DNA of 64,000 nt from Tetrahymena thermophila SB210 (taxonomy: Eukaryota > Ciliophora > Oligohymenophorea > Hymenostomatida > Tetrahymenidae), in assembly GCF_000189635.1 (NCBI RefSeq), contig NW_002476481.1, positions 124,001-188,000 of the forward strand. The letters are read 5' to 3'. Position 1 is the first letter of the stretch; every line of letters starts with the position of its first letter. The notes under the pieces were generated by a model. The model did not search any database. It had not been told where the DNA came from and worked only from the letters and a program-made list of their open reading frames with translations. Below, piece after piece: positions 25,901-60,899 of the stretch. The position numbers and the translations under genes were made by a program.

Positions 25901-28043
25901 TGTATAACTTGTTTACAAGGATATTTATTATCAAGTAAATCTTCTTGTTTTAAATGTATAGAATTTTGTTCTACATGTAATGAAAATTTAATTTGCCCAT
26001 CTTGCTTCGATGGTTACTTCTTAGATAAAAATTCATGTTAAAAATGTTTATAAAATTGTGCATAATGTAATGATTCTTAAACTTGCACTCAGTGCTTGAA
26101 AGGCTATAATCTTTACGATAACTTGTGTCTGACAAGTGAATAATGTCCGAGTGGTTGCAAATTATGCTAGGATAATTTCTCTTGTTAAACTTGTTTAGAT
26201 GGTTATGTCAAATAAAATCAATAATGTATAAAATGCTCTGTTGAAAATTGCAGCTTTTGTGATTAATAGCAACGTTGTTTCTAATGCAAAAGTGGATATA
26301 AGTTACTTAACAATTCATAGATTTGTGTTAAAGATTGTGGAGTTGGACATTATTTATCAGATAATAATGAATGTTTGGCGTGTGATTAAACTTGTTTCAC
26401 TTGCAAAGGTCCAACAGACACAGATTGCATTATTTGTAAAAGTAATTTATATCTCTCAGTTTCTAGCCTAAAATGTACATCATGCTAAGATCAATAATAT
26501 TTAGACAATTAAAATAACTGTCAAAGTTGTTTCTCCATTTGTGAAACTTGTTACGGCCCGTCAAGCAATTAATGTATAATCTGTAAAAATTAGCTCGTTA
26601 AAAGCAAGATATCATTTGAATGTATTACTTTAGATTAATACTAATCAGAAGAATTATAATATTATTTTAAAAATGGCTTTGAGTGTTCTGAAATATAAAA
26701 TAAAAATCTTACATAAAAATGTGAAGAATAGCTAGAATTTAGTAAATTTACGTACAAAATATACTTATATACATCAGCTGCTGGATTGATGTTATCTTTA
26801 TGTTCAGTTATTTTTGTTAGTTCGTTAAGATCATTTAGCACTTACTACATTTAGACATAGCAAATATTAGGATTTAATGTCTTTTCTTAAAAACTGATTC
26901 CTTAATGGTTAAATTAAATGCATTTCAGAATAAGCTATTCTTACAACATTTTTACGTTAGTCCCTAATTTTGTAACAATCTCTTAAGTTTTACATAATTT
27001 AAACAATCAAAGCGAGATGATTACCTTAAACAACTTTTATAAATCTATTTTTGATAATTGTTTGTACCTGATACTGCTTACATTTCTATGCTTATTCTTG
27101 ATTGTTATTGTTATTATTATTTGTTAACACTTTAATAAAGACCTAATGCTAAATTTGCAGAGATAATTAAAATGGAACAAACTTATATAGTTATAACAGC
27201 TATTTTCTAGTTATTTGCTTTTCAATTCTATTTATTAATTATTTAGAAGTGATAAATCTTTATTTGATACAATTTTTTCAATAGGATATATCTTATTTTA
27301 CATTATTTTGAATCTATTTTGGACATTTATTGTAGTATATTAATGGGAAAAACTCATTATGAAAGAAAAGCTTTGTTTTGATTCCTTAGTTAATGGTGTA
27401 TTAGATTCCTCATGTTAAACTAGATGCTATTGGATAGTCTTAGAAGCTAGAAAATGTATAACAGCTATATTTCTATCAAAAAATTTGTTTGAAAATAATA
27501 ATTCTTCTGTTGCATCATGGGTAGGTTTATCAGTTTCTATAGCTTTTTGCTTATATATGATTATTATAAGACCACTTCAATTTAAAAATTAAAATTTCAT
27601 AATAAGTGCTTTAGATTTTATTTACAATATTAAATTGATCATGATTGGAGTTATCATATCAGGGTAATATTCTGATATATAAACTTAATATTATCTAAAT
27701 AATCAGTATCTTGCAAAAAGTAATTTTTTATTTTATTATTTAAATTTAAGTAATTTTGATATTTTTAGTTATTATAATAGCTATGATAGTATTTGCTGCT
27801 TTCTATTCAATTACAACAATCATATTGATGCTTTAGAGATTAAAGATATATCTAAAATTAAGGAAAAGTAAAACATACATTTCAAAATAGCAATCTTTAG
27901 TTATTTCTTCAAGACAAAAAAGTTTTGTCTCAGATTAATGTTTGGAAGAAGCTTTGAAACAGTATAACTAAAATCAATTTAAATATCAAAACTCTATTAA
28001 TAAAAATTTATTTACTAGAAAACTTATAAGTATAAAGCAATGA
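22755..28043 (+). CDS. Cys-rich multi-pass membrane protein (intact copy)
   Basis: Fourteen exons: 22755-22853, 22904-23047, 23102-23260, 23316-23552, 23607-23759, 23813-23947, 24002-24139, 24197-24411, 24471-24509, 24565-24651, 24704-24754, 24813-24857, 24919-27719 and 27769-28043. All phases agree; 1525 residues. Signal peptide at about 1-19 (MIRLIYSLICFCFYLQF); residues about 20-410 form an unrecognised domain with few cysteines. From about 415 to 1110 there are repeated CxxC units (CxxC-x3-CxxC, often ending DGYFL or SGYYL), as in furin-like/growth-factor-receptor repeats. About 1118-1480 is a membrane domain with six or seven hydrophobic segments, then a short Lys/Gln-rich tail. Likely a cell-surface receptor or transporter; ligand unknown. 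The C-terminal domain is related to that of the genes from 29399 to 60899 (motifs IxGxxxFSxKL..W, PNF, KWN). Paralogue of 12262-17570, but without its frameshift. Confidence 0.88.
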
Positions 28044-28144
28044 AATTTAGAAAACCCTAAAGTAAATTTAAGTTATCTTCATCAAATGTTAAATGAATAG
28101 TTTGATTATTATTATTTCACTCAAAATTCCTATATAAAAAAATT

Positions 28145-33915: not shown

Positions 33916-36526
33916 ATGATATGGTTTATTCTAATATTTATTGCTTTAACAAGAGGGGAAAATCCAAAGGTATAGCCAGTAAAATAACCAAAAATTTTAA
34001 AAACGCTTTAAGCTTAAACAATTTTTCAATAATAATTCTAACGTTCTTCCATTATATTAATATAAATAAATAAACACTTGCGGATTAATCTCTGCTTTTA
34101 AATAATATCGAAAAGCAATAAAAGTATGATAATAATCTGGAAAAAATAAAATATTTTTCTACTAATTTTCTCACATTTTCCTTAATTTTTATATTTAAAA
34201 TTATCGAGAGTAAAACAAATTTTTGAACTACTTTATCAGTTAGCTAATTAGGCAATTATCACAATAGATATTATTACAAAAAGGTTGAATTAATGATTTC
34301 AACCCATTCATATATACAAAAAATTTCTATTATTTCTAATCAAAATCATATAAAAGCTTTTAAACTATTTGAATGTGTGCGTTTTTCATATATTTTTTAT
34401 TATTTATAACAATTTAAAATTTATAAAATCTATTTTTACTTAATTCTGCCAAATGAAACTTTAATAAATTATTTTTATTAAATAGCCAGAATTTAATTTA
34501 ATTGGAACAAACTATAGCCTGAATTAATATTAATAATTGAGGTAACTTTAAAATGAAAGTGAATAATAAGAGGGAAATTAAATCTGCAAAGTAGTAATTA
34601 AAAATTGTAAATTGTGTTTTTAATCTGGATTATGTAAAGAGTGCGACAAGGGTTATTACTCCAATAAGTATTTATTTAATTTTGTCTTCCTTCATTTTAA
34701 AACTCTTAGCCACAATTTTAAAATTAATTTTTGTAACCTTATTCTTTTATATTCTTTCCATTAAAAATTTTTTAAATATACAAAAAAGAAACTCTGGTGA
34801 ATGTCTACCTTGCAATAGCTCTTGCGAATAATGTGATGGTCCTTCAGAAAAAAACTGTACTATTTGCTCAAATAATTTAGTATTTTCACCTTAACTAAAA
34901 TAATGCTTGAAAAAATGCAAGGAAGGTTAATTTTTTAACCAAGAAATTAATTAATGTGAATTAAGAATTTAGAATTGCTTGATTTATTCTGATTAAGAAT
35001 AAAATCTATGCTAATTGTGTGAATTTGGTTATAGTTTGAATATATTTAATAATAATTGCGAATCTAATCTAAATATTCAATAAGTAGAAGATATATAAGA
35101 GTCTGTATAAAAGACGAATTAAATAAGAAATCTTTAATAATATAATAATTAATTTAGTGATATTCAATTATATACCCAAATAATTGATATCCTTTCAATA
35201 GCCAATATATCTTTAATACTAATTTCATCAATATTTACAAATTTTGGTTCAACTTTAGGATGGACTTTCATTCAAAATTAATAAATTATTGGTAATTATA
35301 TTTTTTGTCCATATCTGATTTTACTACAAATGAACTAATATGAAATGAAGTCAAGCTACGCTCACCACTTATTTACTATTATTCCTAATTTATTTAAGTT
35401 TTTATCATCTGACAATCAAGTGCTGCTTCAATTTAATAATTAAAGCACTATACTAAAAATAGATGACTTTTGGAGTAGTTTCTTGATTAACTGCTTTTTA
35501 CCTTTGATACTACTAGGAACATGTATTCTTTTTTTATTCATCTTTTTCTTAATTACAATTTCAAATAACAAAGAAGAGTAAACTCTAAGCTTAGCTTAAA
35601 GAATTTACAATTTTATAAAATGGAATGCTTTTGTTAACCTGTTCAGAATAATTGGTAGTTTTTTAATCCTAGATTCAATTTTTGTGTTATATTGGAAGAA
35701 AAATACTTCAATCACTGACTATGTTTTCAGCTCAGTTTTTATTGCTATTTATATACTACTTTATATATATTGGAGTTTAATTATTGGCTATTCGTACGAT
35801 AAAATTAAATTTTAAAGTATAACCTAATACTCTACTTTAATCTAGTAAATAGAAGTTTCTAACATACTTCAAAGGATATTTTGGATATTATTTGAATGGA
35901 AAAAGATTATCATCACTGTATTCTAAGCATTTTTTATATTTGATCAAAATAAATCATAAATCACATGCTGGATTTAAATAGGTCTTAATTTTATATTTCT
36001 GATTTATCTTATTTGGAAAAGACCATTCCTAGAATATATAGCAAATATCATGATAATTGCATTAGAAATAGTCAATCTTGCCTTGATAATATTCCTTGGT
36101 ATTATCATTCAGGAAACTAGTTCCAATCTGACATCTAATCTGATTTAAACTATACATTACTGTAAATATTTTTAGAACTAAAAACATTTATTAACAAATA
36201 AAATTAAATGTTAAATATTTTTTTATATTATTAAACAAACAGGTTACTTATTTACTATGATTGGCTTTATAGGGTTATCAATAATCTTTCAATTTTTTTA
36301 TATAATATAAAAGATTTGCTATTATTTAAAAGGCCAATAATAAATATCTTCAATTAAACATGACTAATCTCTCGTAAAGCCTATTTCATATTAAGAAACT
36401 AAAGAAGAAAAATAAAATTAATTTTTTGAATTTTTATATTAATACAATTTCTAAAGTAAATCACAATGGCTAAGGAAAATCTAAACAGATAGAAAGTTTT
36501 AAAGAAATTATGAGATTTAAGAATGA
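33916..36526 (+). CDS. short Cys-rich multi-pass membrane protein
   Basis: Proposed exons 33916-33969, 34573-34667, 34789-36161 and 36243-36526; phases consistent, 601 residues. Exon 1 encodes a signal peptide (MIWFILIFIALTRGENPK). Exon 2 and the start of exon 3 carry a short run of CxxC units (CKLC, CKEC, CLPC, CEQC, CTIC). From about residue 210 comes the polytopic domain of the family (IIGNYIF, MNQYEMKSSYAHH, YNFIKWN, FEWKKIIITVFQ, ITCWIQIG), then a Gln/Lys-rich tail. The membrane part is very similar to that of 29399-31793. The first intron is long (603 nt); a further short exon inside it cannot be excluded, and the acceptor at 34572 was chosen only because it keeps the frame. Confidence 0.78.
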
Positions 36527-39996: not shown

Positions 39997-42900
39997 ATGG
40001 GTTTTATATTGATAGCGTTTATCTTCATTGAAATGATATTTATGATAAAAACAGAGTAAATAGCATAAATAAAGGTATTTTACTGTTCTTATAATCTAAA
40101 ATATACTTTGTAATATATTTTTTTGAGCACTGAAGTACTTGCTTACTTGCTTTGTTATTTAACTAATAACAATAAATATTTTGAATACTCTTAAAACTAC
40201 AAAATTTCTTATAAGAAAATGGAATTTATATTTGCATTTATTTATCTATAATTTTTTAATAAAATATTTAAACAAGCTTATTAATTTTCATTTAGCTCTT
40301 TTATATTAATTTATAATATTTATATTTAATATAAATAGACTTCTTTTAGATAGCTATAACCAAATTGCTAAAACGGAGAATATTTAGATTCGTAATTTAA
40401 TACTTAATTAAAAATATAGTCTATAATTCTAAATAAATAGCATAAAGCATCTCAAGGATAAATTAATTCTCATTTTATTTTTCATAGCAATTTTCAAATT
40501 TATATTAATTATTTTTATCATTTATATCAAAAATAATTTTATAGTTAATTTTTTTTATTTATAAACACTTCAGATCATCTTGCAAACCTTGTATGCCAAA
40601 CTGTGATAAATGTCAAAATGATAAATAATGTGACGCTTGTAGCAGTCAATATTATTTTGATTCGTAATTTTATATTTTATTAAAATCTAGTCTTTAATTC
40701 TAAATAAATAGCCCAAAGCATCTCAAGGATGCACTCATTCTCATTTTATTTTTCATAGCAATTTTCAAATTTATCTTAATTGTTTTTATAAAAAATAATT
40801 TTAAAGGTAATTTTTTTTATTTATTAACAATAAAAGATAAACTAATTAATGCTAATCTTGTATTCAAAACTGTCAGAGTTGTATAAACGGAAGTGAATGT
40901 CAAACTTGTTTAAGTCCATATTTAAAAAACAACGAGTAATTTACAAAGTTAATTAATGATTCCAAAATCCATAATGAGAAAATTCAATATTTAATTTAGT
41001 TAATAAAAATTACATTTCTTATGACTTATTAATAATTAATTAATTTATTTATTTATTTAAAAACAATTAAATAACTTTGAAATGCGAAACAATAAAATTT
41101 TTTTTTGATTTGATTGTATTCCATTTTTAATATTTTTTAAGATAGACACGAGTTTTAATAAAAATTTTTCAACGAAAATTAAGTAAAATGGAAATTTCTA
41201 TTATTGTTTCATATTCTAAAGACAGACAGATGATTTTAAAGCAAAACATTAATTAAGTTTGATTAAAATTATAATAGAAATACTTTTACGACATGATTGC
41301 TAAAATATATATCAAGAATGATAAAATACCTAATATAATTTTTGAATCCTCTTAAAACAATAGATTTATTATTCAAAAAATCTAATTTTTCCAGCTTAAG
41401 TTTTCATTAAAAAAAAACATAGTATTTATTTAGAAAAGCCTTTATTTAAACTTATTATAAAATTTTAATATTTTATAAATAAATTATAAATGAAATGTAA
41501 AATTTATTCCCTAATTAATTAATTAATTAATATTTCTAACATAAAAATTATATTTTACATTTTTGACGCAGATTTATTTATATTTTTTTCTATAGATCTT
41601 ACTTTTTAACTTAAAAATAAAAATATTCTTTAAATATTTCAAAAGTCTAGCTTGTGCAAACTGTATATAAGGATATTACTATGCATAAGACTAAACCTGT
41701 AAATAATGTGATTAATCTTGTAAAAATTGCTCTGGAGATAGTACTTAGTGTACTGAGTGCGTAGATGGATATTTTTTACAATAAGAGTAAACTTTTATTT
41801 AAAAAGAGTACAAGCAAAATTATTATTAAAATTAAAAGTCTAACTAATAATACAAACACTTGTAAGCCATGTGATGCTAGCTGTTAAACTTGCAGTAGTT
41901 TTAGTAGTTATTGTATTAAATGCAATTTAAATTACTTTCCACTTTACTAGTAATATTAAATTTAACTATAAATACCATAAAATAGACCTATAAATAAATA
42001 AAAAAATAAGAATCAATTTAAACAAAAAAGCGCAATAATATTTTACTTTTATTTTGGTATTAAATAATATTTTAGGTCTTAAATAATAATAAACTAAGTT
42101 AAATAATTTTTAATTAAAATTATATAAAAGTAATTAAAGTTTTTTAAACTAATGTACTTATTGTTAAGGAAGTGATAGATTTAAATAAAAAAATTAATGC
42201 TAACTATGTAATAGTTCTTGTAGTGCATGTTAGAATAATGAAGCTGATAATTGTACACAATGCTATCCTGGGTATTATTTGGATCACTAGACTTGTTAGC
42301 CATGTGATAGTACATGTAATGAATGCAGTGGCCCTAGCAAAACAGATTGTAAATCATGTAGGCAAGACAGTTACTTAAAAATGTATAAAATCATTAAATA
42401 AATTAAAATTTATTTCAAATATAATAAATAATTTTAAATAAAAAATACCTTTAAAAAGAGTTGATCATACTTGCTGGCCATGTGATTAATCTTGCTAAGG
42501 ATGCACAGGACCAAAAAATAGTGATTGCTTAAATTGCAAAATTGGTTATTCTTTTAAAGAATAAATATGTATCAAGTGTGATATTACTTGTTAAAGATGT
42601 ACCGGAACATCATCTACAGAGTGTAAAGAATGCTATAGTAACTTTTACTTAACTCCAGAGTAAATTTTAATGAAATAATTATTCATTATTTTATAAAAAA
42701 TATATATGAACTTATTTACATAAAATTAAATTACTCTTAACTAAAATAAAGCAACAGATGTATTTCATGCTAACTAGATGGATGGTACAGAAGTGGATTA
42801 TAGTGTTTGCAATGCTAATCACCTTGTTAAACATGCATAACCAAACCAAATTTTTGTTTAACATGTGAGACAGGATTGTATTTATTTCTAGGGTAATTAA

Positions 42901-45900
42901 TTTTACAATTTATCAATTTTATTTACTTATTTAAAAAAATTTAAGAAATACCTGTGCACCATGCCATGAAGAATAATCATATTATAAAAAAGATATTTAA
43001 TGTTTGAAATGTTCTTCAAACTGCTTGACTTGCTCACAAAACGAAGCAAATTGTTAAACTTGCTCTACTGGATAATATTTGACAAATGAGTAATTTTAAA
43101 AATTTAAATCTTTTAATACATTTTTGTTTATGTTTTATAGTAAAATACATTTTTTTTGTTCAAAATTTAGTAATAAATGCGTGGAATGCAATTAAAATGG
43201 ATAATTTATCTCAGATAAGGCATGCAAAACATGTGATGTTACATGTTTAAAATGTAATGGAACATAAAGTACAAACTGCACAGAATGTAGAACAGGCTCA
43301 TATTTATCCTAAAAGTAATAATGAATGAATGAATAAATAAATAAATAAATAAATAAATATGCGATAATTTACATCAATTTATTTAAATTTTTTAAAAACT
43401 ATTTTTTATTTTTTTTGTAAAAATTTACTTAGCAATGAGTGTGTTCCATGTAATAAAGCCGGACAATATATATCTTAAACTAAATGTATATAATGCGATG
43501 TGTCCTGTACTAAATGCGATGAACTTGTAAATAGTCATTGTTCTTCTTGTGTTGATGGTTAATATTTAACTGTAGAGTAATATTTTTAGTGAAATTAAAT
43601 TTTTTTAATTTATAGTTATTCGTTTTAAATAAATCAAAATTTATCAATAAATAAATAAGTAAATAAGTATTTTCTTGGCTAAGGTTCTGTTAATATTCTC
43701 TTTAAATTAGTTTTTTTAAATTAAATTTTTAATATAGTGACTAAAATCTAATTAATTAATCAGTTTGACCTTGCTGTTAATGACTTATTAAATTTATTTA
43801 ACTTACATTTTACAAAAATAAATAATTTTGTTGATAAATTAAATTAAGAAATAATTTTTTAAATAGTTTCAAATGCACACCTTGTACTGACAATGGATTT
43901 TTTATCTCATAAAATTAATATTGTGTTTAATGTCATAGTACTTGTATAAAGTGTAAAGGAAATACTGAAAATGATTGTATAAAATGTCAAATAGGGCTTT
44001 ACTTAAATGATAAGTAAGTTCAACATTTTTTTAAATTTAATTTTTTATTTATTTCACTATCAAAATTAATATCATAAAATTTTTTAGAAATTAGTGTGTT
44101 TCATGTAATTAAGATGGATTATTTATCAATGGAGGCAAGTGCTAATAATGTTATTAATATTGTGCTAGTTGCTCTGGGACTCAGATTACAGATTGCAAAA
44201 CTTGTCTAGTAGGATATTATTTGATAAATAAGTAATTTTAATTTTTAATTTATTTAAATTTATCTTTTGATTTGATAAAAATATTTATTTTATATTTAAT
44301 TAGCAATTCATGTGTAAAATGCGACTAAGATGGATAATTTATATCAGGTATATAATGTAAAAACTGTCATAGTTCATGTCTAAAATGTAATGATATAAAT
44401 AAAACTAATTGTACCTAATGTAGGTCAAATTTATACTTGTCTTCAAAGTAATCAAATGAAGCATTTATTTTTTATATTATTTAATGATTTAAATTCTTTT
44501 TTTTTCAATTTATAAAAGTAATGAATGTGTAGCATGCGATCAACCAGGGCAATCAAAGTTTGGAACTTAATGTATTTAATGTGACTCCTCATGTCTAACC
44601 TGTGATGGAACATAAAATACTAATTGCTTATCTTGCACTAATGATAAATACTTAACTCCAAAGTAATTATTCTAGTCTAACTTAATTGTTTAGATTTATT
44701 ATTAATTAATTATCCTCATTAATTAACTCAAAAAATTAAAGTGAAGCTTTTAAATTTTTTCAATAAAATTATTTTTGAACTTAATCATTTTGAAAAGAAG
44801 CTAATTAATTTTATTTAATTCAAATTTTAAAAAAATTGTCTTCGTCTGTCTGTAAAAATGTTTTCAAATAATTAATTCTTCTTTTATTTTAAATGCTTAA
44901 TGAAAAAATCCATTTTATTTATTTATTTATAAACATACAGAAAATAATGCACATCTTGTACTGATGATGGATATTTTATATCCTCTTAAAATTAATGTTA
45001 AGAATGCGATAAAACATGTTTGAAATGCAAAGGAACAACTTCTAAAGATTGTCTTACATGTCCAATAGGCAAATATTTATATGAAGAGTAAATTTTATTT
45101 TTTAATTTTTCATTGTTTAGCAAATCATTTATATTTTCATCAAACTTTAGTAATTAGTGTATTTCTTGTGATCCAAATGGATTCTTTATAAGTGAAAATA
45201 AGTGCTTTAAATGTGATTCTTCTTGTCTTACATGCAAAGGAACTGCAAATACTGATTGTCTATCATGCAGCAAAGGTTAGTATTTGTTAGTCAGGTAAAA
45301 ATTAATTTAATTAAAAGAATTACTATTGATTATTCTATCTACAATTTAAAAAATAAATAAATTTCATTAATAAGTTATAAATTCATTAATTTTTTCATTA
45401 TTTTAAAAAAACTTCTTTTTTATTTTAGCTAAATTTTTTATAATTTAATGAATTACTTTCTAAATTTAGCTAAAAAGAACTAAAATCAAATTTCTAATTT
45501 TAACTTTATAGTAATAGTACTTGCGTAAGCAGCTGTAATACAAAGAATGGATACTTTATCTCAGGCGATAAATGTATTCAATGTGATAAAACTTGCAAAA
45601 CTTGTAGTGGAGAATTAGAGACGAACTGTTTATCTTGCGTTTTTGGTTTAATCTTTTAGCCTAGTTTTAATATATGTGATAAATGCGAAGAAGGATAATT
45701 TTTAAATAAATCGACTAATGAGTGTGAATATTGTGATAAAACTTGTCTAACCTGCATTGGAACAAATAAAAACTAATGCAAAATATGTGCTGATGGATTA
45801 ACTTTAAGTAAAGTTACAAATACTTGTGAAAATAGTACTGCAATTAAAAACTAATAAGAGTAAATAAAGTAAATCTAAAAAGTAGGTTGCTTAAATAAAT

Positions 45901-47233
45901 AAAGTAAATCAGATTCAGATTGCATGTAAAGAATTGATACCAGTGAGTCTTAAATCTAAATTTTAAATGTTTTAAATATTTGCAACATTGTGGTATTAAT
46001 CCTTTCTTCTGCATTTACACCGTTTGGAACTTCAATTGGCTAGATTTTTTTATAAAACTCTTAAATTATAGGAAATTACATTTTTGCTTCAAAACTTTAT
46101 TCTCTTTGGATGAACTAATTTGAGCTGAAAACTTATTATGCATATCACGTGTATACAATTATACCTAATATGTTTAAATAATCAACTGGAGTTACTCTAT
46201 TCTCATTTTAAATGTTTAATACTCTTATACAAATTAATGATTTTAGTGATAGCTATTTTAACAACTGCTTTTTATCTGTTTTAACTTTAGGAATCATTAT
46301 AATTGCTACTATAATAATTTTTTTTAGTGTTTAATCTGCTATTTTTAGAAATACTTAGATAAGCTCTTAAAACAGCAAACTGTATTAAATATATTCCTAT
46401 ATTAAATGGAATCTATTTGTCCATTTTTTTAGAATCTCTTCTAGCTTTTTCGTTTTTAACGCTGTTTATATACTAAAATACCAATTTCACCTTGAAAAAA
46501 TAGACTTGATTTTAATAGCTATTTCGATACCTGTATATTTAATTTTACAATCCCTGTGGAGCATCAAAATTGGATTTAAATTCTATTAAATATCTTCAAA
46601 TGATTTGGCCTCCATAGATAGTTTAACTCAAAAAATAGAAATATCTGATCAATTTTCTAGAATTTTTTGGATAGTATTTGAATGGAAAAAAATTTTTATT
46701 ACTGTAATCTAATCAATTTTTATATTTACTGATGATAAATAGCATCTAAGCTGCTGGATTCACTCTGCTTTGAATGTTTTGTTTGTAGTTTACGTCACTA
46801 TTAAATAACCGTTTTTAGAAAAAAAAATTAATTATTTTGTAGTATTATAAGAAATTATCTATACAGTATTAGCTATTCTAATAGGTATCATCTTAGCATA
46901 AGACAATGGTTTAAATCCTTAGAATGTTCCTAGTTTATCACAAAATATGCAATCAAGTAAGTAATATATAAAATTTTAGATAATTCAAATATTTTTTAAA
47001 TAGTATTTAGGTATTTGAGCTTTGGATTATTAGGAGGAATGATGATATCTTAATTATTTATGATCTTGTAAAGGCTATATAATTATATTTAACAGGTTCT
47101 ATTTTAAAGAAAAGTAAGAGGAACAAATAACACTACAACTTAATAAATAGAATAATTTAATGACACTAATATTAACTAAATATTTGAAATGTTAGATTAG
47201 AAAAAAAATAAAATTGATTGGAAAAGATTTTGA
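39997..47233 (+). CDS. modular Cys-rich multi-pass membrane protein, copy 1
   Basis: Twenty exons: 39997-40074, 40339-40391, 40574-40663, 40837-40935, 41646-41786, 41839-41949, 42131-42382, 42459-42659, 42752-42892, 42946-43089, 43171-43314, 43433-43576, 43867-44013, 44088-44231, 44304-44447, 44519-44662, 44941-45087, 45151-45294, 45512-46956 and 47004-47233. They sum to 1380 residues plus TGA with every phase consistent. Exon 1 codes a signal-type N-terminus (MGFILIAFIFIEMIFMIK). Exons 3-18 encode CxxC modules; the 144-nt exons each give one repeat C-x2-C-x11-C-x2-C-x3-C-x2-C-x7-C-x2-C. Exon 19 ends the repeats and starts the membrane domain (about residue 972 on) with seven or eight hydrophobic segments and the family motifs QIIGNYIFASKL, KWN, FEWKK and CWIHS. 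A surface receptor or channel is the likely role; nothing shows a ligand. The first introns are the least certain. Confidence 0.87.
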
Positions 47234-48527: not shown

Positions 48528-51500
48528 ATGGGTTTTATTTTGATAGCGTTTGTCTTCATTGAAATGATATTTATGATAAAAACAGAATAAATAGCATAAA
48601 TAAAGGTATTTTACTGTTCTTATAATCTAAAATATACTTTGTAATATATTTTTTTGAGCACTGAAGTATTTGCTTACTTCCTTACTTAGTTATTTAACTA
48701 CTAACAATAAATATTTTGAATACTCTTAAAACTACTAAATTTCTTATAAGAAAATGGAATTTATATTTGCATTTATCTATAATATTTTAATAAAATATTT
48801 AAACAAGCTTATTAATTTTCATTTAGCTCTTTTATTTTAATTTATTATATTTATATTTAAAATAAATAGACTTCTTATAGATAGCTATAAATTATTTGCA
48901 ATCAGGGATAATATTTAGATTTGTAATTTAATACTTAATTAAAAATATAATCTATAATTCTTAATAAATAGCATAAAGCATCTCAAGGATACATTCATTT
49001 ATTCTCATTTTATTTTTCATAGCAATTTTCAAATTTATCTTGATTATTTTTATCAAAAATAATTTTAAAGTTAATTTTTTTTATTTATTAACAATAAAGA
49101 TAAACTCGTTAATGCTAATCTTGTATTAAAAACTGTCAGAGTTGTATAAACGGAAATGAATGTCAAATTTGTTTAAGTCCATATTCAACAAACAACGCGT
49201 AATTTACAAAATTAATTAATGATTCCAAAATCTATAATGAGACAATTCAATATTTAATTTAGTTAATAAAAATTACATTTCTTATGACTTATTAATAATT
49301 AATTAATTTATTTATTTATTTATCTATTTAAAAACAATTAAATAACTTTGAAACAATAAAAATTTTTTTTTGATTTGATTGTATTCTATTTTTAGTATTT
49401 TTTAAGACATACACTAGTTTTAATTAAATTTTTTCAAAGAAAATGAAGTAAAATGGAAATTTCTATTATTGTTTCATATTCTAAAGACAGACAGATGATT
49501 TTAAAGCAAAGCATTAATTCATTTTATTAAAATTATAATAGAAATACTTTTTCAACATGATTGCTTAAATGTAAATCAAGAATGATAAAATAACTAATAT
49601 AATTTTTGAATCCTCTTAATTCAATAGATTTATTATTCAAAAATCTAATTTTTCCAGCTTAAGTTTTTATTTAAAAAAACCTAGTATTTATTTAGAAAAA
49701 TATTTATTTCAACTTATTATAAAATTTTAATATTTTATAAATAAATTATAAAGAAATATAAAATTTATTCCCTAATTAATTAATATTTCTAACATAAAAA
49801 TTATATTTTACATTTTTGACGCAGATTTATTTTTATTTTTTTCTTTAGATCTTATTTCTTAACTTAAAAATAAAAATATTCTTTAAATATTTTAAAAGTC
49901 TAGTTTGTGCCAACTGTATATAAGGATATTACTAGGCATAAGACTAAACCTGTAAATAATGTGATTAATCTTGTAAAAATTGCTCTGGAGGAGATAGTAC
50001 TTAGTGTACTGAATGCATTGATGGATATTATTTAGAAAAAAAGTAAACTTTTATTTAAAAAGAGTACAAGCAAAATTATTATTAAAATTTAAAGTCTAAC
50101 TAATAATACAAACACTTGTAAGCCATGTGATGCTAGCTGTTAAACTTGCATTAGTAATAGTAATAATTGTATTACATGCAAATAAGATTTCTTACCACTT
50201 TACTAGTAATATTAAATTTAACTACAAATACCATAAAATAGACCAATAAATAAATAAAAAAATAATAATTAATTTAAACAAAAAAGCACAAAAATATTTT
50301 ATTTTTATTTCGGTATTAAATAATAATTTAGGTCTTAAATAATAATAAACTAAGTTAAATAATTTTAAATTAAAATTATATAAAAGCAAAACTACTTTTT
50401 AAAACTAATGTACTGATTGTCAAGGAAGTGATAGATTTAAATAACCTGGTTAATGCTAACTATGTAATAACTCTTGTAGTGCATGTTAGAATAATGAAGC
50501 TGATAATTGTACGCAATGCTATCCTGGGTATTATTTGGATTAATAAACTTGTAAGCCATGTAATAGTACATGTAATGAATGCAGTGGCCCTAGTAATAAA
50601 GAATGTAAATCATGTAAGCAAGACCGTTACTTAAAAACGTATAAAATCAATAAATAAATTAAAATTTATTTCAAATATAATAAATCATTTTAAATAAAAA
50701 ATACCTTTAAAAAGAGATGATAATACTTGCTAGCCATGTGATTAATCTTGCTTAGGATGTAAAGGACCAAAAAATAGTGATTGCTAAAATTGCAAAACTG
50801 GTTATTCTTTTAAAGGATAAATATGTATCAAGTGTTTTGATATTTGTTAAAGATGTACCGGAACATAATCTACAGAGTGTATAGAATGCTATCTTGGCTA
50901 TTACATAACTCCAGGGTAAATTTTAATGAAATAATTATTCATTAATTTACAAAAAATATATTTGAACTTCTTTATATAAAATTAATTTACTCTTAACAAA
51001 AATTAAGCAAGAGAGTAATAATTAATGAATGAATAAATAAATAAATATGTGATAATTAACATCAATTTATTTAAATTCTTTAAAAACTATTTTTTATTTT
51101 TTTTTGTAAAAATTTACTTAAGCAATGAGTGTGTTCAATGTAATAAAGCCGGACAATTTATATATTCAAACAAATGTGTTTAATGCGATGTGTCCTGTAT
51201 TTAATGTGATGAATTTGTAAATAGTAGATGTATTTCTTGTGTTGCTGGTTAATATTTAACTTTAGAGTAATATTTTTAGTGAAATTAAATTTACATCATT
51301 TAAAGTTATTCGTTTTAAATAAATCAAAATTTATCAATAAATAAATAAGTATTTTCTTCGCTAAGGTTCTATTAATGTTCTCTTTAAATTAGTTTTTTAA
51401 TTTAAATTTTTAAAATAATGACTATTAATTAATACAGCTTGACCTTGCTGTTAATGACTTATAAAATTTATTTAACTTAAATTTTACAAAAATAAATAAT

Positions 51501-54148
51501 TTTGTTGATACATTAAATTAAATTATTTTAAGAAATGCTTTTTTAAATAGTTCTAAATGCACACCTTGTACTGACAATGGAGTTTTTATCAAAAATTCAC
51601 AATGCCTTTAATGTCATAGCTCTTGTATGAAATGTAAAGGAACTACAGAAAATGATTGTATATAGTGTCAAATAGGGCTTTACTTTAATGAAAAGTAAGT
51701 TCTCTTTTTTTTTTAATTTAATTTTTTATTTCTTTCACTACCATAATTAATATCATAAAAATTTTTTAGAAATTAGTGTGTTTCATGTAATTAAGATGGA
51801 TTCTTTATCAATGGAGACAAGTGCTAATAATGTTATTAATATTGTGCTAGTTGCTCTGGGACTCAGATTACAGATTGCAAAACTTGTCTAGTAGGATATT
51901 ATTTGATAAATAAGTAATTTTAATTTTTAATTTATTTAAATTTATCTTTTGATTTGATAAAAATATTAATTTTATATTTAATTAGCAATTCATGTGTAAA
52001 ATGCGACTAAGATGGATAATTTATATCAGGTAAATAATGTAAAAACTGTCATAGTTCATGTCTAAAATGTAATGGTATAAATAAAACTAATTGTACCTAA
52101 TGTGGGCCAAATTTATACTTATCTTCAAAGTAATCAAATGAAGCATTTATTTTTTAAATTATTTAATGGTTTAAATACTATTTTTTTCAATTTATAAAAG
52201 TAATGAATGTGTAGCATGCGATCAACCAGGGCAATCAAAATTTGGAACTTAATGTATTTAATGTGACTCCTCTTGTCTAACCTGTGACGGAACATAAAAT
52301 ACTAATTGCTTATCTTGCACTAATGATAAATACTTAACTCTAAAGTAATTATTCTAGTCTAACTTAATTGTTTAGATTTATTATTAATTAATAATACTCA
52401 TTAATTAACTGAAAAAAATAATGTGAAGCTTTTAAATTTTTACAATAAAACTTTTTTTGATCTTAATCTTTTTGAAAAGAAGCTAATTAATTAATTTTAT
52501 TTAATTTAAATTGTTAAAAATTTATCTGTATGCTCTAAAAATGTTTTCAAATAATTAATTCTTTTTTTATTTTAAATGCTTAATGAAAGAAAAAATCTGT
52601 TTTATTTTTAAACTTACAGGAAATAATGCACATCTTGTACTGAAGATGGATATTTTATATCATCTAAAAATTAATGTCTTGAATGCGATCAAACATGTTT
52701 GAAGTGTAAGGGAACAACTTCTAAAGATTGTCTTACATGTCCAATAGGCAAATATTTATATGAAGAGTAAATTTTATTTTTTAATTTTTAATTATTTAGC
52801 AATTCATTTATATATTCATCAAACTTTAGCAATTAATGTATTTCTTGTGATCCCAATGGATTCTTTATTAGTGAAAACAAGTGCTTCAAATGTGATTCTT
52901 CTTGTCTTACATGCAAAGGAACTGCAAATACTGATTGTCTATCATGCAGCAAAGGTTAGTATTTGTTAATCAGGTAAAGATTAATTTAATTAAAATAATT
53001 ATTATTGATTGCTCTATTTGCAATTAAACAAACAAATAAATTTCATTAATAAGTTATAAACTAATTAAATTCTTCATTATTTTAAAAAACCTTCTTTTTT
53101 ATTTTAGCTAAATTTTTTATAATTTAATGAATTACTTTCAAAATTTAGCTAAAAAGAACTAAAATCAAATTTCTAATTTTAACATTATAGTAATAGTACT
53201 TGCGTAAGCAGCTGTAATACAAAGAATGGATACTTTATCTCAGGCGATAAATGTATTGAATGTGATAAAACTTGCAAAATTTGTAGAGGAGAATTAGAGA
53301 CGAACTGTTTATCTTGCGTTTTTGGTTTAATCTTTTAGCCTAGTTTTAATAAATGTGATAAATGCGAAGAAGGATAATTTTTAAATAAATCGACTAATGA
53401 GTGTGAATATTGTGATAAAACTTGTTTAACCTGCATTGGAACAAATAAAAACTAATGCAAAATATGTGCTGATGGATTAACTTTAAGTAAAGTTACAAAT
53501 ACTTGTGAAAATAGTACTGCAGTTAAAAATTAATAAGAGTAAATAGAGTAAATCGAAAAAGTAGGTTGCTTAAATGAATAAAGTAAATCAGATTCAGATT
53601 GCATGTAAAGAATTGATACCATTGAGTCTTAAACCTAAATTTTAAATGTTTTAAATATTTGCAACATTGTGGTATTAATCCTTTCTTCTGCATTTACACC
53701 GTTTGGAACTTCAATTGGCTAGATTTTTTTATAAAACTCTTAAATTATTGGCAATTACATATTTGCTTCAAAACTTTATTCGCTTTGGATGAACTAATTT
53801 GAGCTGAAAACTTATTATGCATATCACGTGTATACAATTATACCTAATATGTTTAAATAATCAACTGGANNNNNNNNNNNNNNNNNNNNNNNNNNNNNNN
53901 NNNNNNNNNNNNNNNNNNNNNNNNNNNNNNNNNNNNNNNNNNNNNNNNNNNNNNNNNNNNNNNNNNNNNTATTTATGATCTTGTAAAGGCTATATAATTA
54001 TATTTAACAGGTTCTATTTTAAAGAAAAGTAAGAGAAATAAATAACGCTAAACCTTAATAGATAGAATAATTTAATGACACTAATATTAACTAAATATTT
54101 GAAATGTTAGATTAGAAAAAAAATAAAATTGATTGGAAAAGATTTTGA
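48528..54148 (+). CDS. modular Cys-rich multi-pass membrane protein, copy 2 (contains assembly gap)
   Basis: Exons seen: 48528-48605, 48870-48922, 49100-49198, 49899-50042, 50095-50205, 50387-50638, 50715-50915, 51123-51266, 51551-51694, 51770-51913, 51986-52129, 52201-52344, 52620-52766, 52830-52973, 53190 into the gap, and the last exon from within the gap to TGA 54146-54148. Exon for exon it matches copy 1, offset by about 8.5 kb, with phases kept and no in-frame TGA. Compared with copy 1 it lacks the exon at 40574-40663 and the three at 42752-43314. Because these are phase-2 exons with lengths divisible by three, the frame survives. The 100 Ns hide most of the membrane domain, so integrity there is unknown. 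Confidence 0.82.
53870..53969. other. assembly gap (100 N)
   Basis: A run of exactly 100 Ns within the large 3' exon of copy 2. The flanks TCAACTGGA and TATTTATGATCTTG correspond in copy 1 to 46190 and 47055, so about 864 bp are expected here and the 100 Ns are a placeholder. The gap lies where the tandem copies are most alike, a typical place for assembly failure. Confidence 0.98.
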
Positions 54149-55246: not shown

Positions 55247-58200
55247 ATGGGTTTTAAATAAATAGCTTTTATTATCATTCAGATGATATTTTTAATCGAA
55301 GGAGATATGGAAATAAATTAACAAGTAGATCTTTATTTATATTAAAATTATAAAAAATGTATTTTATTTAACCTTTGCTACTAACATAGATTTTTAAAGA
55401 AAATTTAAAGGTTTTTGATTTTTTTTATTTGTATTATTTTTATTTCAATTACAAAAAAATATTTTTATTCAATTTAATTACTTTTTTAATTTTTAACTTA
55501 AATAAAAATAATTTTATAAAATAAAATAGATTGCTAAATCTTTTAGATAATTATTAAGCTGTTCTGATGGATGTACGTAATAAAAAATTATTTATTTTGT
55601 TTTTAAATAAAAATAATTTAATTTATATTTAGATATTTTAATTGATATAATGACATTTTCTATCATACAGAGTGTTATATCTGTATTAGTAACTGTAGTA
55701 TTTATGATGCGATTAATACATCTTAATGTATTATTTATGATGATCAATATTATCTAATGGAGGGGTAAAAACAAATTTTAATCATTAATTGAACATAAGA
55801 CTGAATAATGAATGTTCAGATTAACATTTTTCAACTTTTAAGCAAACATTTATTTACTTTTGAAACTTTCATAATTAAAATGAAATCATTTTTTGATTAA
55901 AAAGTTATTTTAATTATAAATATAGACTAGATTATTAAAGTAAATTTTTAAAATATCCAACCAAATTAGGTTTATTTTAATATTTTTAAACAAAATACTT
56001 TGCAAAAAATACAAAATCTATTAACTAACTAAGCTATTTCTTTAGATTTAAAAATCAATTAGGTACTAATTAAGCTTTTGTGAGGTAATAAAATAGCAAA
56101 AAGTATAAAGTTTAAAAAATGCAAGGTAATTAATTGCGCTTTATGATTATGCCGCGGATTTTTTAATATTTATTTTTAAAAATTTCTAAAACTCAATCCC
56201 TAAAATATGTTATCTCATATTTAATAATTTAATAAAAAAGTAATAATTGCTTTTTATTTCAAAATCGATTCATTTTCTTGCAATCCACTTGGAACACTCT
56301 TATATATATTATTTTTTACATCTTCTTAAGTAAATAAAATCAAAACAAAATTAGTGAAATATTTAACTTTATTTATAAGTATTGTAAATAAAAAATTCAA
56401 TATAATATTTGATTTTTGATTTTAATGATAAGTAAACAAAAAATCTAAAATAGATTTTGAATTTTAATTTTTTTGTTTTTGTACAATATTATTTATTAAT
56501 ACTCGTGTATGTAGCCTTGAAAAGGGCAGTACCCTAGGGTACTATATATAAGAAAAATATTAAAATTAAATATCAAAAAAACTTTATTTAATATTATTAA
56601 TAAAAATATTAATAAATTATCTAATTAATAATAGCAGACAATCTTGTTAGGCTTGTGACATTTCTTGTAATGGATGCTAAGGACCATCAAATAAAAATTG
56701 TAATACCTGTAAATTAGGATATACTATGACATTGTAAGGCTGTATGAAATGCGATTAGTCTTGTAAAACATGTACAGGTACAAAAAGTACATAATGTGAA
56801 ACATGCTCTTATAATTTACTCAAAACAGAAGAGTAAATTTTTATTGTTATTAAAATATTTTAAAGTTTTTGCATTAATTGTAAAAAACTGATTATATTAA
56901 ATAACGAACGTTTTTAAATAAATAGCAATTAATGCATATCATGTGATTAAGATGGATATTTTGAACAATAGGGCTATTGTTATAAATGTGATTAAACTTG
57001 TAAAAAATGTTAAGGAAAAAGTAAAATAGATTGTATATCCTGTCCAACTGATAGTTATTTATTAAATTCGTAATTATTTTAATGATTTATTTTTATCATT
57101 TACTGAGCATATTATATAATTTTATTTTACCAATATTTAGTGGTGAATGTGTTTCATGTAAATAAGATAAATAATATATCCTTGGAGATAAATGTCTTTA
57201 ATGCGATCCATCTTGCCTTTAATGCAACGGAGGTTTAAAAAATAGTTGCACAGCTTGCTAAAATGGAAAATATTTGACAAAAAAGTAATTAAAAATTATT
57301 ATTCCTATTTAATTCTCATTAAAATGTTCTTCGTTTTTCTCCTTGGAAGGTTAGATTTATCCTTTCTTTTTATTAAAAGTAATGAATGTGTGGCTTGCGA
57401 CTAAGATAGATAATTTTAACAAGGTCAATATTGTGAAGATTGTAATCCTTAATGCCTAAAATGTAGTGGAACTAAAAATAATTGCACAAAATGTGAAGCA
57501 AATTTATACTTAAATTCAAGGTAATGATAAGATTTGTTTATTAATAAAAATATTTTATAATTTCTATTTTTTAAATTAATATAAGCAATGAGTGTGTAAA
57601 ATGTGAAGAAATAGGATAATTTAAATCTTATAATGGCAAATGTATATAATGTGATAAATCTTGCATTAAATGCGATGAAATATAAAATAATAAATGTTTA
57701 GAATGCGCACCATAAAAGTACTTAACATAAGAGTAATTATTTTGAAAACTAATTATTCATTTATTTAAAATATTTCTTTGTTTGAATATGAAATTAATTT
57801 ATTAAATTAATAATTATCAGGAATTAACTCATTCATTCATATATTTAAATAGTTGTTTGTTTGAATATAAAATATACTTTATTAAATGATATTTGCTTTA
57901 CTATGAAATAATTAATAAAATTAATTTAGTTTATTTTAAAAATAGAAACAAATGCATATCTTGTGATTAAGATGGATATTTTATTTCTTAAAAATATTGT
58001 CTCTAATGTGATCCATCTTGCCTTTAATGCAACGGAAGTTTGAAAAATAAATGCACAGCTTGCTAAAATGGAAAATATTTGACAAAAAAGTAATTAAAAT
58101 TATTAATCCTATTAAATTCTCATTAAAATTTTCTTCATTTTTCTCCTTAGAAGGTAAAATTTATTCTTTCTTTTAATTAAAAGTAATGAATGTGTGGCTT

Positions 58201-60899
58201 GCGACTAAGATAGACAATTTTCACAAGATTAATATTGCGAAGATTGTAGTCCTTAATGCCTAAAATGTAGTGGAACTAAAAATAATTGCACAAAATGTGA
58301 ACCAAATTTATACTTAAATTCAAGGTAATGATAAGATTTGTTAATTTATAAAAAAAATTATAACTTCTATTTTTTAAATTAATATAAGCAATGAGTGTGT
58401 AAAATGTGAAGAAATAGGACAATTTAAATCTAAAAATGGCAAATGTATATAATGTGATAAATCTTGCATTAAATGCGATGAAATATAAAATAATAAATGT
58501 TTAGAATGCGCACCATAAAAGTACTTAACATAAGAGTAATTATTTTGAAAACTTATTTTTTCATATTACTTAAAATATTTCTTTCTTTGAAAATGATATG
58601 ACTTTATTAATTTTTGAGAATTAATTCATTTATATATTTAAATAGCTGTTAGAATGAATATAAAATGGCTTTATTAAATGATTTTCGCTTTACTTACTTA
58701 AAAATAATTAATAAAACTAATTTAATTTATTTTAAAAATAGCAACAAATGCACATCTTGTGATTAAGATGGATATTTTATTTCTTAAAAATAATGTCTGT
58801 AATGTAATTAAACTTGCTTAAAATGCTCAGGCCCAACATAAAATGATTGTAGATCATGTCCTAAAAGGTTGTATTTATTTGAAGAGTAATTTTATTATAA
58901 ATTTTATATATTTAATTTTGCACGAAAAATAATTATTTTTTTTCTTCTTCTAACTTTAGTAGCTAATGCGTTTCATGTAATTAAAATGGAGTTTTTATTG
59001 ATGGAGACAAATGTCTTAAATGTCATTCATCTTGTCTAACATGCAAAGGAACAAATAGCACTGACTGCTTATCATGCAGTAAACCTTAGTATTTATTAGT
59101 CAGGTAAAGTTTAATTTAAAAATTTTTCAAATTTTAATTTAAAAATTATCTTGAAAATATTAATTAAATAGTAATAGCACATGCACAGATAATTGTTACA
59201 CTAAAAATGGATACTATATTAAAGAAAACAAGTGTATTCAATGCCATAAAAATTGCAGATCTTGTGATGGTGAATTAGAAGCTAATTGTAAATCTTGTAA
59301 TTTAGGTCTGATTTTATAACCTACTTTAAAAAAATGTGATAAATGCGAAGAGGGTACATTTTTAAATAAGACTACTAATAAATGTGAATATTGTGATGAA
59401 ACTTGCTTGACTTGCTCTGGAGTAGATAAAAATTAATGCTTAATATGTGCTCAAGGTTTAACCTTAAGCAAAGTCACAAATACTTGTGAAAACAACACTA
59501 AAATACAAAATTAATAGGATGAACTAGAATATGTTTAAAAAGTAGGTTGCTTAAACGAATAAAGTAAACCTGATTAAAATTGTATGTCAAGATTTGATAC
59601 AAGTAAATCTCAAACCTAAATTCTAAATATTTTAATTATTTCAAACATAGTTTTAATAATGATTACTTCTCTTTTTACGCCATTTGGAACTTCACTTGGC
59701 TAAATTTTAATATAAAACTCCTAACTTATTGGAAACTACATATTCGCTTCCAAGTTGAATTCGCTGTGGATGAATTAACTTGAATTAAAAACATACTATG
59801 CATATCATGTAGCTACTATTGTACCGATAGTATTTAAGTAATCATCTAGTTAAACTTTATACTAATTTTAATCTTTTAATACACTTATTTCTGTAAATGA
59901 TTTTGTAGATAGCTATCTTAGCAACTGCTTTATATCTCTTATAACCCTAGGAGTCATTATCTTTACTACTCTTCTTATCGCTGTGGTTTTGTCATCAGCT
60001 ACTTGTAGGATTGATCATAATAATTAAAACAACAGTAAACTCTACCAAATATATTTCTATTTTAAATGGAATTTATTTGTTAATTTTTTTAGAATTGCTT
60101 CTAGCTTTTTGATTTTGAATGCAGTCTACTTACTTACATCAAAATAAAAGCTTGAAAAAATAGAATTAATTTCTATGGCTATTTCTATATTTGTGTATGT
60201 AATTTTGTAGCTTTATTGGAATATTAAAGTAGGGTTTAAATACTATTCAATATCATTTACAGACTTGGAATCAATTGAAAGTTTGACTTAAAAAGTTGAA
60301 GTATCTAATTGGCATTCTAGAATATTTTGGATTTTATGTGAGCTAAAAAAAGTGATTATAACTGTGGCTTAATCAATATTCATATTTACTTAAGATAAGT
60401 AGCATCTAAGTTGTTGGATTCATGCAGGTTTAAATATGGTGTTTATTATTTACATTTCTATATCAAAGCCATTTTTAGAAAAACAATTAAATTTTATTGT
60501 GGTATTATAAGAATTGCTCTTTGCAATATTAGTTGTTCTTTTAGGAGTTATTTTAATAACAGATAATGACTACAATGCATATAATTTAGCTAGCTTATCT
60601 TAAAATATGCAATTAAGTAAACTAATTTATAACTTTTTTCTATATATTATAATAATTTTTTAACCAAAGTATTTAGGTATGTAAGTTTTGCAATATAAGG
60701 AGGATTAATCATATTCTAATTACTAACAATTATTTAAAGAGTCTTGAAATATGTATAACAACTTTTACATATAAATAAAATAAGAGCTACAAGTGCAACT
60801 ACACAATAAATTGAATAAATAAATGAAACTAATATTATCTAAATATTTGAAATGTTAGATAATAAATCATATAATTATAGTTGGTAAAAAAAAATATGA
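55247..60899 (+). CDS. modular Cys-rich multi-pass membrane protein, copy 3
   Basis: Fifteen exons: 55247-55324, 55530-55572, 55671-55764, 56635-56832, 56926-57069, 57141-57284, 57380-57520, 57586-57732, 57946-58089, 58184-58324, 58389-58535, 58742-58885, 58960-59103, 59172-60616 and 60670-60899; 1127 residues plus TGA, phases consistent. N-terminus MGFKQIAFIIIQMIFLIEG is hydrophobic and related to copies 1 and 2. Exons 5-13 are 141-147 nt, each one 8-Cys module. The last two exons (1445 and 230 nt) have exactly the same lengths as in copy 1 and encode the end of the Cys region and the polytopic domain (LIGNYIFASKL, MNQLELKTYYAYHV, CWIHAG). Three exons (57141-57732) are repeated as 57946-58535 by an internal duplication. 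It is more diverged from copies 1 and 2 than they are from each other. Exons 2-3 are less certain. Confidence 0.86.
57200..58795 (+). repeat. approx. 0.8-kb internal tandem duplication of Cys-module exons
   Basis: About 57200-57990 and about 58005-58795 are direct copies about 805 bp apart: GATCCATCTTGCCTTTAATG at 57205 and 58010, TAATGAATGTGTGGCTTGCG at 57380 and 58184, and the CAATGAG exon start at 57586 and 58389. Each unit ends in a module exon beginning AACAAATGC. The junctions fall within exons and introns without disturbing the frame, adding three modules. Confidence 0.85.

Follow-up and report, generated by a model that had tools for sequence, protein, structure and literature searches.

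The Tetrahymena LRR genes carry arrays of exons of exactly 90 bp with an extreme phase-2 bias and a variable exon number, for which exon shuffling via unequal crossing over has been proposed (PMC6564038). According to the same paper, only about 1.6% of the T. thermophila LRR genes seem to be direct whole-gene tandem duplicates, the arrays are linked with the REP retrotransposon, and the growth factor receptor (GFR) Cys-rich domain is among seven domains enriched in Tetrahymena species-specific genes. The mating-type genes MTA and MTB lie head-to-head and are joined by somatic rearrangement (excerpts of PMC3608545 and PMC10901506), and the Ser surface antigens of T. thermophila are Cys-periodic, GPI-linked proteins encoded in tandem arrays (excerpt of PMC4136848).

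We analyzed a stretch of 64,000 nucleotides from the free-living ciliate T. thermophila SB210 (the window; contig NW_002476481.1, positions 124,001 to 188,000), in which three tandem genes, named by their starts as G1 (39997), G2 (48528) and G3 (55247), carry modules with eight Cys residues (8-Cys). G1–G3 belong to a tandem gene array whose predicted products are multi-helix membrane proteins, each with a signal peptide followed by a Cys-rich stalk. The membrane domain was found in 27 copies over about 180 kb, all 27 on the same strand. The features within the window are as follows.

14412..16619, + strand: gene A (12262), repeats of about 30 residues that no intron splits; compared with gene B, its membrane part is out of frame
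24896..28093, + strand: gene B (22755), single open frame (1066 codons) covering the membrane domain and unsplit repeats, each of about 30 residues
30440..31405, + strand: gene B2, carrying the family's membrane domain
34793..36121, + strand: gene C, another member of the family, with the membrane domain and few Cys repeats
39997..40055, + strand: G1 exon 1, signal-peptide-like start with a phase-2 end; P0006, a T. utriculariae orthologue, begins similarly
40574..40663, + strand: G1 Cys exon of 90 nt, missing from G2; the surrounding 267 bp are similar to both flanks
41646..45294, + strand: G1 run of 14 phase-2 module exons, with lengths of 141, 111, 252, 201, 141, 144, 144, 144, 147, 144, 144, 144, 147 and 144 nt
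42752..43314, + strand: three G1 module exons missing from G2 (556-bp difference), present in P0006
45512..46956, + strand: large terminal exon of G1, with the final Cys repeats and the multi-helix membrane domain; phase-1 end
47004..47233, + strand: G1 final exon with TGA stop (AG at 47002-47003; first in-frame TGA)
48528..53869, + strand: G2, close G1 paralogue with 12 module exons; an assembly gap (53870-53969) breaks the 3′ part
55247..60615, + strand: G3, a paralogue that shares the membrane domain and has 10 module exons modelled; exons before 56635 partly modelled
57141..57732, + strand: G3 three-exon block, copy 1
57946..58535, + strand: G3 three-exon block, copy 2
63580..63693, + strand: Cys exon of 114 nt in G4, the next array member

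A total of 38 module exons were modelled, with 16, 12 and 10 in G1, G2 and G3, respectively. All of them are preceded by AG, followed by GTA and free of TGA in the phase-2 frame, and their lengths, for which indivisibility by three had been named in the initial annotation as a point of refutation, are multiples of three in 38/38. Openness in phase 2 says little by itself, since 29 of the 38 exons are also open in phase 1 (three in phase 0). Lengths of 141, 144 or 147 nt, predicted for more than 25 exons, were indeed observed in 28 (11 in G1, eight in G2 and nine in G3). The modules comprise 45–49 residues with eight Cys, mostly on one predicted exon each, and the eight Cys are invariant in all 21 modules that were hand-chosen for alignment. 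The proposal that each exon encodes one repeat of exact spacing (C-x2-C-x11-C-x2-C-x3-C-x2-C-x7-C-x2-C) holds for 20 of the 38 exons, and for 33 with a looser pattern, but not for the remainder. Similarly, nearly every exon at 41646..45294 had been taken as a single repeat, which fits 11 of the 14 (141–147 nt); the other three are one exon of 111 nt and two double exons of 252 and 201 nt. Double exons of these two lengths occur in G1 and G2, and short exons of 90 and 99 nt lie upstream of the G1 run. A phase of 2-2, claimed for these repeat exons, was found in all 38 module exons, and the signal-peptide-like exon of G1 likewise ends in phase 2, but the last G1 intron, 3′ of the membrane exon, is in phase 1. 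The gene finder had merged G1–G3, and the ends of G1 were set by hand and compared with P0006; the predicted junctions match two database proteins, P0001 of T. malaccensis (at the 3′ end) and P0006 of T. utriculariae, in the aligned parts. The correspondence of exon and module was confirmed, at the level of predicted junctions, for most modules of G1–G3.

Across the array, a gene finder without phase preference placed 165 of 167 Cys-module exons in phase 2-2, compared with 36 of 99 other internal exons. The array resembles the LRR arrays in the same genus, with fixed-length exons, phase 2 on both sides, variable exon number and unequal crossing over as a proposed mechanism. Unlike the 90-bp LRR exons, however, the exons here encode an 8-Cys repeat and are mostly 138–150 nt in length (109/167), with only one of 167 having 90 nt, and the 8-Cys genes, unlike the LRR genes, form one same-strand gene array. 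Judged from predicted exons, the 8-Cys family is a second Tetrahymena repeat family with a phase-2 exon-array architecture besides LRR. If this is right, Tetrahymena has built at least two unrelated repeat folds from arrays of phase-2 exons of fixed size, suggesting a property of the genome and not of the LRR family. The family most likely belongs to the GFR domain class, but in the passages of PMC6564038 consulted, LRR genes are the only ones for which exon arrays and a phase bias are described, and searches of the open-licence PMC literature brought up no account of Tetrahymena exon arrays made of Cys modules. As in MTA/MTB, so far as the excerpts describe them, the terminal exon combines a Cys-rich segment with membrane helices and the N-terminal part is variable; this is a likeness in the described architecture, and unlike the head-to-head MTA/MTB pair, 27/27 array copies point one way. 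The Ser antigens, as far as the excerpt describes them, are likewise a Cys-periodic, surface-protein-like family in a tandem array, but they are GPI-linked, whereas the array proteins are predicted to end in a multi-helix membrane domain.

Internal repetition of whole units was observed at several places. In G7, a unit of a 144-nt exon and a 71-nt intron occurs in six copies at 215-bp steps. Measured against the intron of unit 2 (71 sites), those of units 1, 3 and 4 show no difference, that of unit 5 shows eight and that of unit 6 shows 35, and among units 1–4, with identical introns, the exons differ from unit 2 at 2–5 sites. The two copies of the G3 three-exon block are 79, 95 and 98% identical in their exons and 90, 92 and 84% in their introns, and further internal unit repeats were found in G8, G11 and G16 by the module list. 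Among six close pairs, 11 indels of at least 150 bp were counted, excluding alignment ends and N gaps; nine of these remove module exons, and in seven of the nine neither border cuts into an exon by more than 4 nt. The idea that the paralogues differ by exactly whole-exon events is mainly right, but not all events are exon-clean, since indels of 436 and 603 bp start within homologous exons, another of 188 bp is free of module exons and a fourth, of 539 bp, falls within the G13 membrane domain, which is broken. The near relatives G8, G9, G10, G12 and G13 contain seven, six, four, nine and five modules, respectively, although copy numbers in the assembly may be wrong because of near-identical repeats and three 100-N gaps; their C-terminal DNA is 90–94% identical (G13 over 468 bp only). 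The three exons at 42752..43314 were probably lost in G2, because both G1 and P0006 keep them.

These patterns would fit a history in which a phase-2 intron was placed between modules once in this clade, after which the exon and intron unit was multiplied in tandem, and also lost, as homologous units recombined with each other (by unequal crossing over or replication slippage). Each such event would alter the length of the ectodomain and leave the frame intact, because the units share their phase and a length divisible by three. Since copying one exon and intron unit yields a uniform phase automatically, the phase records ancestry. The best reading of a phase 2 throughout is that the introns descend from a single one, multiplied together with its unit; the uniformity allows frame-safe change but is no proof of purpose. 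Taken as a whole, the explanation by array membership, single intron placement, unit duplication and loss, and a probable surface or endomembrane role is one that we hold with high confidence. The locus might serve as a clean setting for the study of intron spread through unit duplication, as the same genome has one module in both split and unsplit form, along with recent duplicates whose introns are identical.

The evidence on selection, obtained with crude counting of exon, intron and dN/dS differences, is mixed. That only neutral concerted evolution acted, with recombination expanding and contracting units to no benefit and phase 2 as a passenger, is a reasonable possibility, if short of probable. 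The automatic origin of a uniform phase is consistent with it, as are module dN/dS values below 1 in five of six pairs (0.72, 0.63, 0.37, 0.41 and 0.49 over whole module sets), values close to 1 for the membrane part in four pairs (1.06, 0.83, 0.82 and 1.15) and broken members such as G13, with four TGA, and gene A, out of frame. However, the invariant Cys of the 21 chosen modules, the absence of TGA from the G1–G3 modules and the apparent constraint on the G1/G2 C-terminal modules (dN/dS 0.23) and membrane part (0.19 over 100 codons) argue against it. The initial annotation suggested a device for diversifying a surface receptor. A selected device of this kind, in which modularity was kept because it makes receptor ectodomains variable (for recognition of self/non-self, prey or pathogens) and the modules are under diversifying selection, appears rather unlikely. 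In its favor, the N-terminal half of G1/G2 differs at 129 of 1134 exon sites and 98 of 1758 intron sites, against 89.5 exon differences expected from per-base rates of all G1/G2 introns applied to exon composition (dN 0.122, dS 0.109); the G10/G9 modules have a dN/dS of 1.59, the G7 exons differ between identical introns, and module number differs among close paralogues. But the C-terminal half of G1/G2 shows the reverse (29/723 exon and 64/768 intron sites), the G3 duplicated blocks do not have exons consistently more diverged than introns, and the values of 0.37–0.72 in five of six pairs do not support general diversifying selection across all six. Moreover, a dN/dS near 1 is not special to the modules, because the supposedly constant membrane part has it too (0.82–1.15 in four of six pairs). 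A fast-evolving recognition system, with a constant membrane part, ectodomains altered by germline duplication and loss of exon units, and diversifying selection on outer modules, is graded by us as improbable; if true, wild strains would differ in their module sets, and receptor-making exon arrays would have arisen twice in one genus from unrelated folds.

The 8-Cys repeat is unsplit at four of five other genome places examined (L049, L050, L051 and L053), with the frame open across the entire examined stretch of 866, 666, 466 and 400 codons, respectively; L052, the fifth place, gave no clear picture. In the tree of the membrane domain, which is unrooted, has long branches and contains B2, C and G17 within the split side without assignment to either group, a single change explains the split state (support 92/97), and one change was obtained in 88% of 200 bootstrap trees. 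That the introns are old and were lost from the unsplit arrays elsewhere is doubtful: the 201- and 252-nt double exons of G1 and G2 are examples of a junction without its intron, but both the four unsplit places and the unsplit genes beyond one branch of this unrooted tree favor one gain. Genes A and B, which had been described as carrying a comparable repeat region mostly in one 2.8-kb exon, turned out to have an unsplit repeat of another type (about 30 residues, period of about 90–93 nt), so a mere fusion of the 8-Cys repeats does not describe them, and the idea that they are intron-less versions of the same array was rejected. Exon skipping, by which alternative splicing of symmetric exons would give many protein lengths, is very unlikely: all 38 module exons share their phase and divisibility by three, making in-frame skipping possible, and P0005 and P0007, both T. 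malaccensis proteins from the database, differ by three modules, but this difference may be a modelling error given their contigs (3,216,405 and 3,216,458 bases) and common out-of-frame stretch.

The array proteins are probably located on the cell surface or endomembranes, as their predicted sequences suggest, and may be receptor- or adhesin-like with a more constant membrane part; silent sites are less diverged in the membrane part than in the modules in six of six close pairs. Many helices are predicted, in a low-confidence model, for the long, hydrophobic C-terminal domain, and the structure model of P0001 (11 sequences) was poor (pLDDT 52.9, pTM 0.27). A homologue search with the membrane part of P0006 returned Tetrahymena proteins only (five matches, 7990 candidates scored), and no related solved structure was found for the membrane domain by sequence. 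The PF06011 (TRP-like) profile matched one of seven members weakly (E 0.41), and hhalign of the membrane domain against two Cys-plus-TRP database proteins was also weak (probability 21%, E 0.0011). The G1 double module had no Pfam match, neither of the two G1 pieces scanned reached a cut-off (the terminal exon scored 24.6 for VSP, below 31.4), and no LRR match was present in the three pieces scanned with Pfam. The exon of gene B matched VSP (PF03302; E 5e-46, score 157.7, cut-off 31.4) and Furin-like_2 (PF15913; E 2e-6, score 28.3, cut-off 28), from which the array members differ as ciliate proteins with a multi-helix membrane domain.

The genes of the window, which covers 124001-188000 of contig C81, are readable under code 6 (TAA and TAG read as Q), which is of the ciliate type, and the three tandem genes G1, G2 and G3 (starting at window positions 39997, 48528 and 55247, respectively) carry modules, that is, 8-Cys repeats of 45–49 residues, mostly on one predicted exon each. 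The exon-as-module pattern claimed in the initial annotation proved to be real as a sequence feature with predicted junctions: all 38 listed module exons of G1–G3 are preceded by AG and followed by GTA, and 28 of them are 141, 144 or 147 nt long. Lengths other than multiples of three, which the annotation took as counting against the pattern, were looked for, and all 38 lengths are divisible by three. The phase-2 frame is open in every one of these exons, with phase 1 and phase 0 as control frames open in 29 and 3 of the 38, respectively. Since phase 1 is open so often, an open frame alone is weak evidence, and the argument for module exons is based on cysteine spacing and borders. A cruder phase-blind rule was also used, taking the nearest AG upstream and the nearest GTA[AT] downstream of 38 repeat cores in G1–G3, which are not exactly the 38 exons because double exons contain more than one core. 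Donors fell in phase 2 for 33/38 cores (four in another phase and one not found) and acceptors for 25/38; among the 13 missed acceptors are seven with an AG immediately next to the first Cys codon.

The membrane domain of G1, the multi-helix C-terminal part common to array members, was used as a query and revealed at least 27 same-strand copies from 139,843 to 320,803 of contig C81, counted from match coordinates after partial matches of one gene were joined. One further copy was located at 92 kb of C81, and near-full-length matches were also found on contigs C112 and C109. Most other off-contig matches are confined to the beginning of the query, which is rich in Cys. The array members were named A, B, B2, C and G1–G23. 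A gene finder without phase preference gave 167 Cys-module exons in the array (internal, ≥3 CxxC, ≤330 nt), of which 165 are in phase 2 at both ends, one is 2-0 and one 2-1; of the remaining 99 internal exons, 36 are phase 2-2. This gene finder is unreliable for gene ends, having merged G1–G3, with the exon phases within modules unaffected. The array was read from one assembly, of which part was covered here, with 1512 bases at C81:254186-255697 outside the stretches read. Three 100-N gaps (window 53870-53969, C81:188282-188381 and C81:200019-200118) lie in or near G2, G4 and G5, so the repetitive array is imperfectly assembled. No close T. thermophila protein for G1 was present among the best 120 of 246 homologues (lengths about 0.55–1.75 times that of G1), and therefore the genes at window 39997-60615 may be absent or differently modelled in public annotation.

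The 8-Cys repeat also occurs without introns elsewhere in the genome, as was seen at four of five places picked as examples from earlier matches, and not as a survey. The whole fetched stretch is open in L049 (866 codons), L050 (666), L051 (466) and L053 (400), while the runs in L052 are shorter and less clear. L049 (contig C174) and L050 (C156) hold unsplit arrays with a spacing of about 150 nt, L050 with near-identical longer repeat blocks. A membrane-domain tree was built from 32 rows, with 15 labelled split (modules on separate exons), nine unsplit and eight ungrouped, among which B2, C and G17 are all on the split side. One branch parts the split from the unsplit genes with a support of 92/97, and a single change between the two states suffices in 88% of 200 bootstrap trees. 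These sequence comparisons are read as a split state that arose once, after which the unit was copied. Intron loss in the unsplit genes, instead of gain in the split ones, is a less likely reading of this unrooted tree.

The typical unit differs by gene, with 144 nt in G1–G3 and G7, 150 nt in G6 and 138 nt in G15 and G16, a pattern that local expansion within each gene would produce. G7 is the most clear-cut example, with six 144-nt exons and 71-nt introns following each other in exact 215-bp steps. With unit 2 as reference, units 1, 3, 4, 5 and 6 show 5, 2, 4, 12 and 31 differences, respectively, in the 144 exon sites and 0, 0, 0, 8 and 35 in the 71 sites after the exon. A three-exon block occurs twice in G3 (exons 79, 95 and 98% identical; introns 90, 92 and 84%), and comparable repeats were observed in the module list of G8, G11 and G16.

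G1 and G2 share 97.6% identity over the 678 C-terminal bases compared. Two stretches set them apart: one of 267 bp, which contains a single 90-nt exon and is similar in sequence to both its flanks (left 89% over 79 bp, right 74% over 195 bp), and one of 556 bp, which contains three exons. The database proteins P0006 of T. utriculariae and P0001 of T. malaccensis are sister to G1 and G2 in the membrane-domain tree, and the exons that G1 has and G2 lacks in the 556-bp stretch have counterparts in P0006, aligned at 47/47, 48/48 and 33/48 residues; therefore, the three exons were probably lost in G2. P0006 has the equivalent of only one of the five G1 modules at 43171-44447, a difference that gain, loss or an annotation error could each explain. 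In six close pairs, 11 indels of ≥150 bp were obtained with alignment ends and N gaps set aside. The annotation held that the three paralogues differ by exactly whole-exon events, and in the main such events are supported: nine of the 11 indels remove module exons (267, 556, 667, 221, 189, 186, 244, 603 and 436 bp, the module position of the 189-bp indel coming from a separate listing because the module list fused that exon with its neighbour), but the 436- and 603-bp indels start within homologous exons, a 188-bp indel has no module exon and a 539-bp indel lies in the G13 membrane domain. In the other seven module-removing indels, neither border reaches more than 4 nt into an exon. Together with the two that start within exons, this makes putative recombination between homologous units a better description of the events than cutting at exon borders. 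Two T. malaccensis entries, P0005 and P0007, are database versions of one protein whose contigs differ by 53 bases; they differ by three modules, and a stretch present in both looks out of frame. Judged by this pair, public gene models of array-type proteins may be unreliable.

The N-terminal half of G1/G2 differs at 129/1134 exon sites and 98/1758 intron sites, with 89.5 exon differences expected from intron rates per base on exon composition (dN 0.122, dS 0.109). The C-terminal half is reversed, with 29/723 in exons, 64/768 in introns and a dN/dS of 0.23. By simple count, in which some modules of the six pairs are perhaps mismatched, the dN/dS of the module set and the membrane part was 0.72 and 0.19 for G1-G2, 0.63 and 0.59 for G4-G5, 0.37 and 1.06 for G8-G9, 0.41 and 0.83 for G9-G12, 1.59 and 0.82 for G10-G9, and 0.49 and 1.15 for G11-G14. 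The opposed halves of G1/G2 and these six-pair values suggest that faster exon change is local, not general, and ratios near 1 are not peculiar to the modules, since the membrane part also approaches 1 in several pairs. Silent-site divergence is lower in the membrane part than in the modules in all six pairs (0.014–0.095 versus 0.105–0.752), a difference that is consistent with a homogenised membrane part or with module exchange and gives a constant-plus-variable layout.

In Tetrahymena LRR genes, phase-2 introns separate arrayed exons of exactly 90 bp, an arrangement for which unequal crossing over has been proposed, and the GFR Cys-rich domain is one of seven expanded domains (PMC6564038). 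In the sections of that paper considered here, exon arrays are described for LRR genes only. MTA and MTB end in a common exon that carries membrane helices and a GFR domain (PMC3608545, PMC10901506), and the Ser antigens, which occur in tandem, are attached through GPI (PMC4136848). Alongside the LRR genes, the Cys modules would be a second repeat type in Tetrahymena with such an exon array.

In Pfam searches, the exon of gene B (which starts at 22755) matched VSP and Furin-like_2, the terminal exon of G1 gave a VSP match below threshold, a double module of G1 gave no match, and the membrane domain fell into no clear family. For the latter, no solved relative was found by sequence, the structure model was poor, and profile signals pointed weakly to a TRP-like channel link. 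Homologue searches with this domain yielded Tetrahymena proteins only, except P0004, a Cys-rich protein of 394 residues that matches 24% of the query. We infer a surface receptor or adhesin role for the array proteins. Gene B2 (window 30440-31405) is P0002, a 574-aa macronuclear protein of T. thermophila SB210 that has the membrane domain without Cys modules and whose sequence includes stretches of the window gene. The gene A membrane domain (gene start 12262; domain 15843-17179) is out of frame relative to gene B, its 91%-identical neighbour, with five TGA in the matched frame, making gene A a pseudogene or an assembly error; G13 (L027, C81:251876-252685), with four TGA in its matched membrane domain, is probably a pseudogene. 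Predicted G15 (L040, C81:262028) and T. malaccensis P0010 have a glycine-rich start ahead of the Cys modules.
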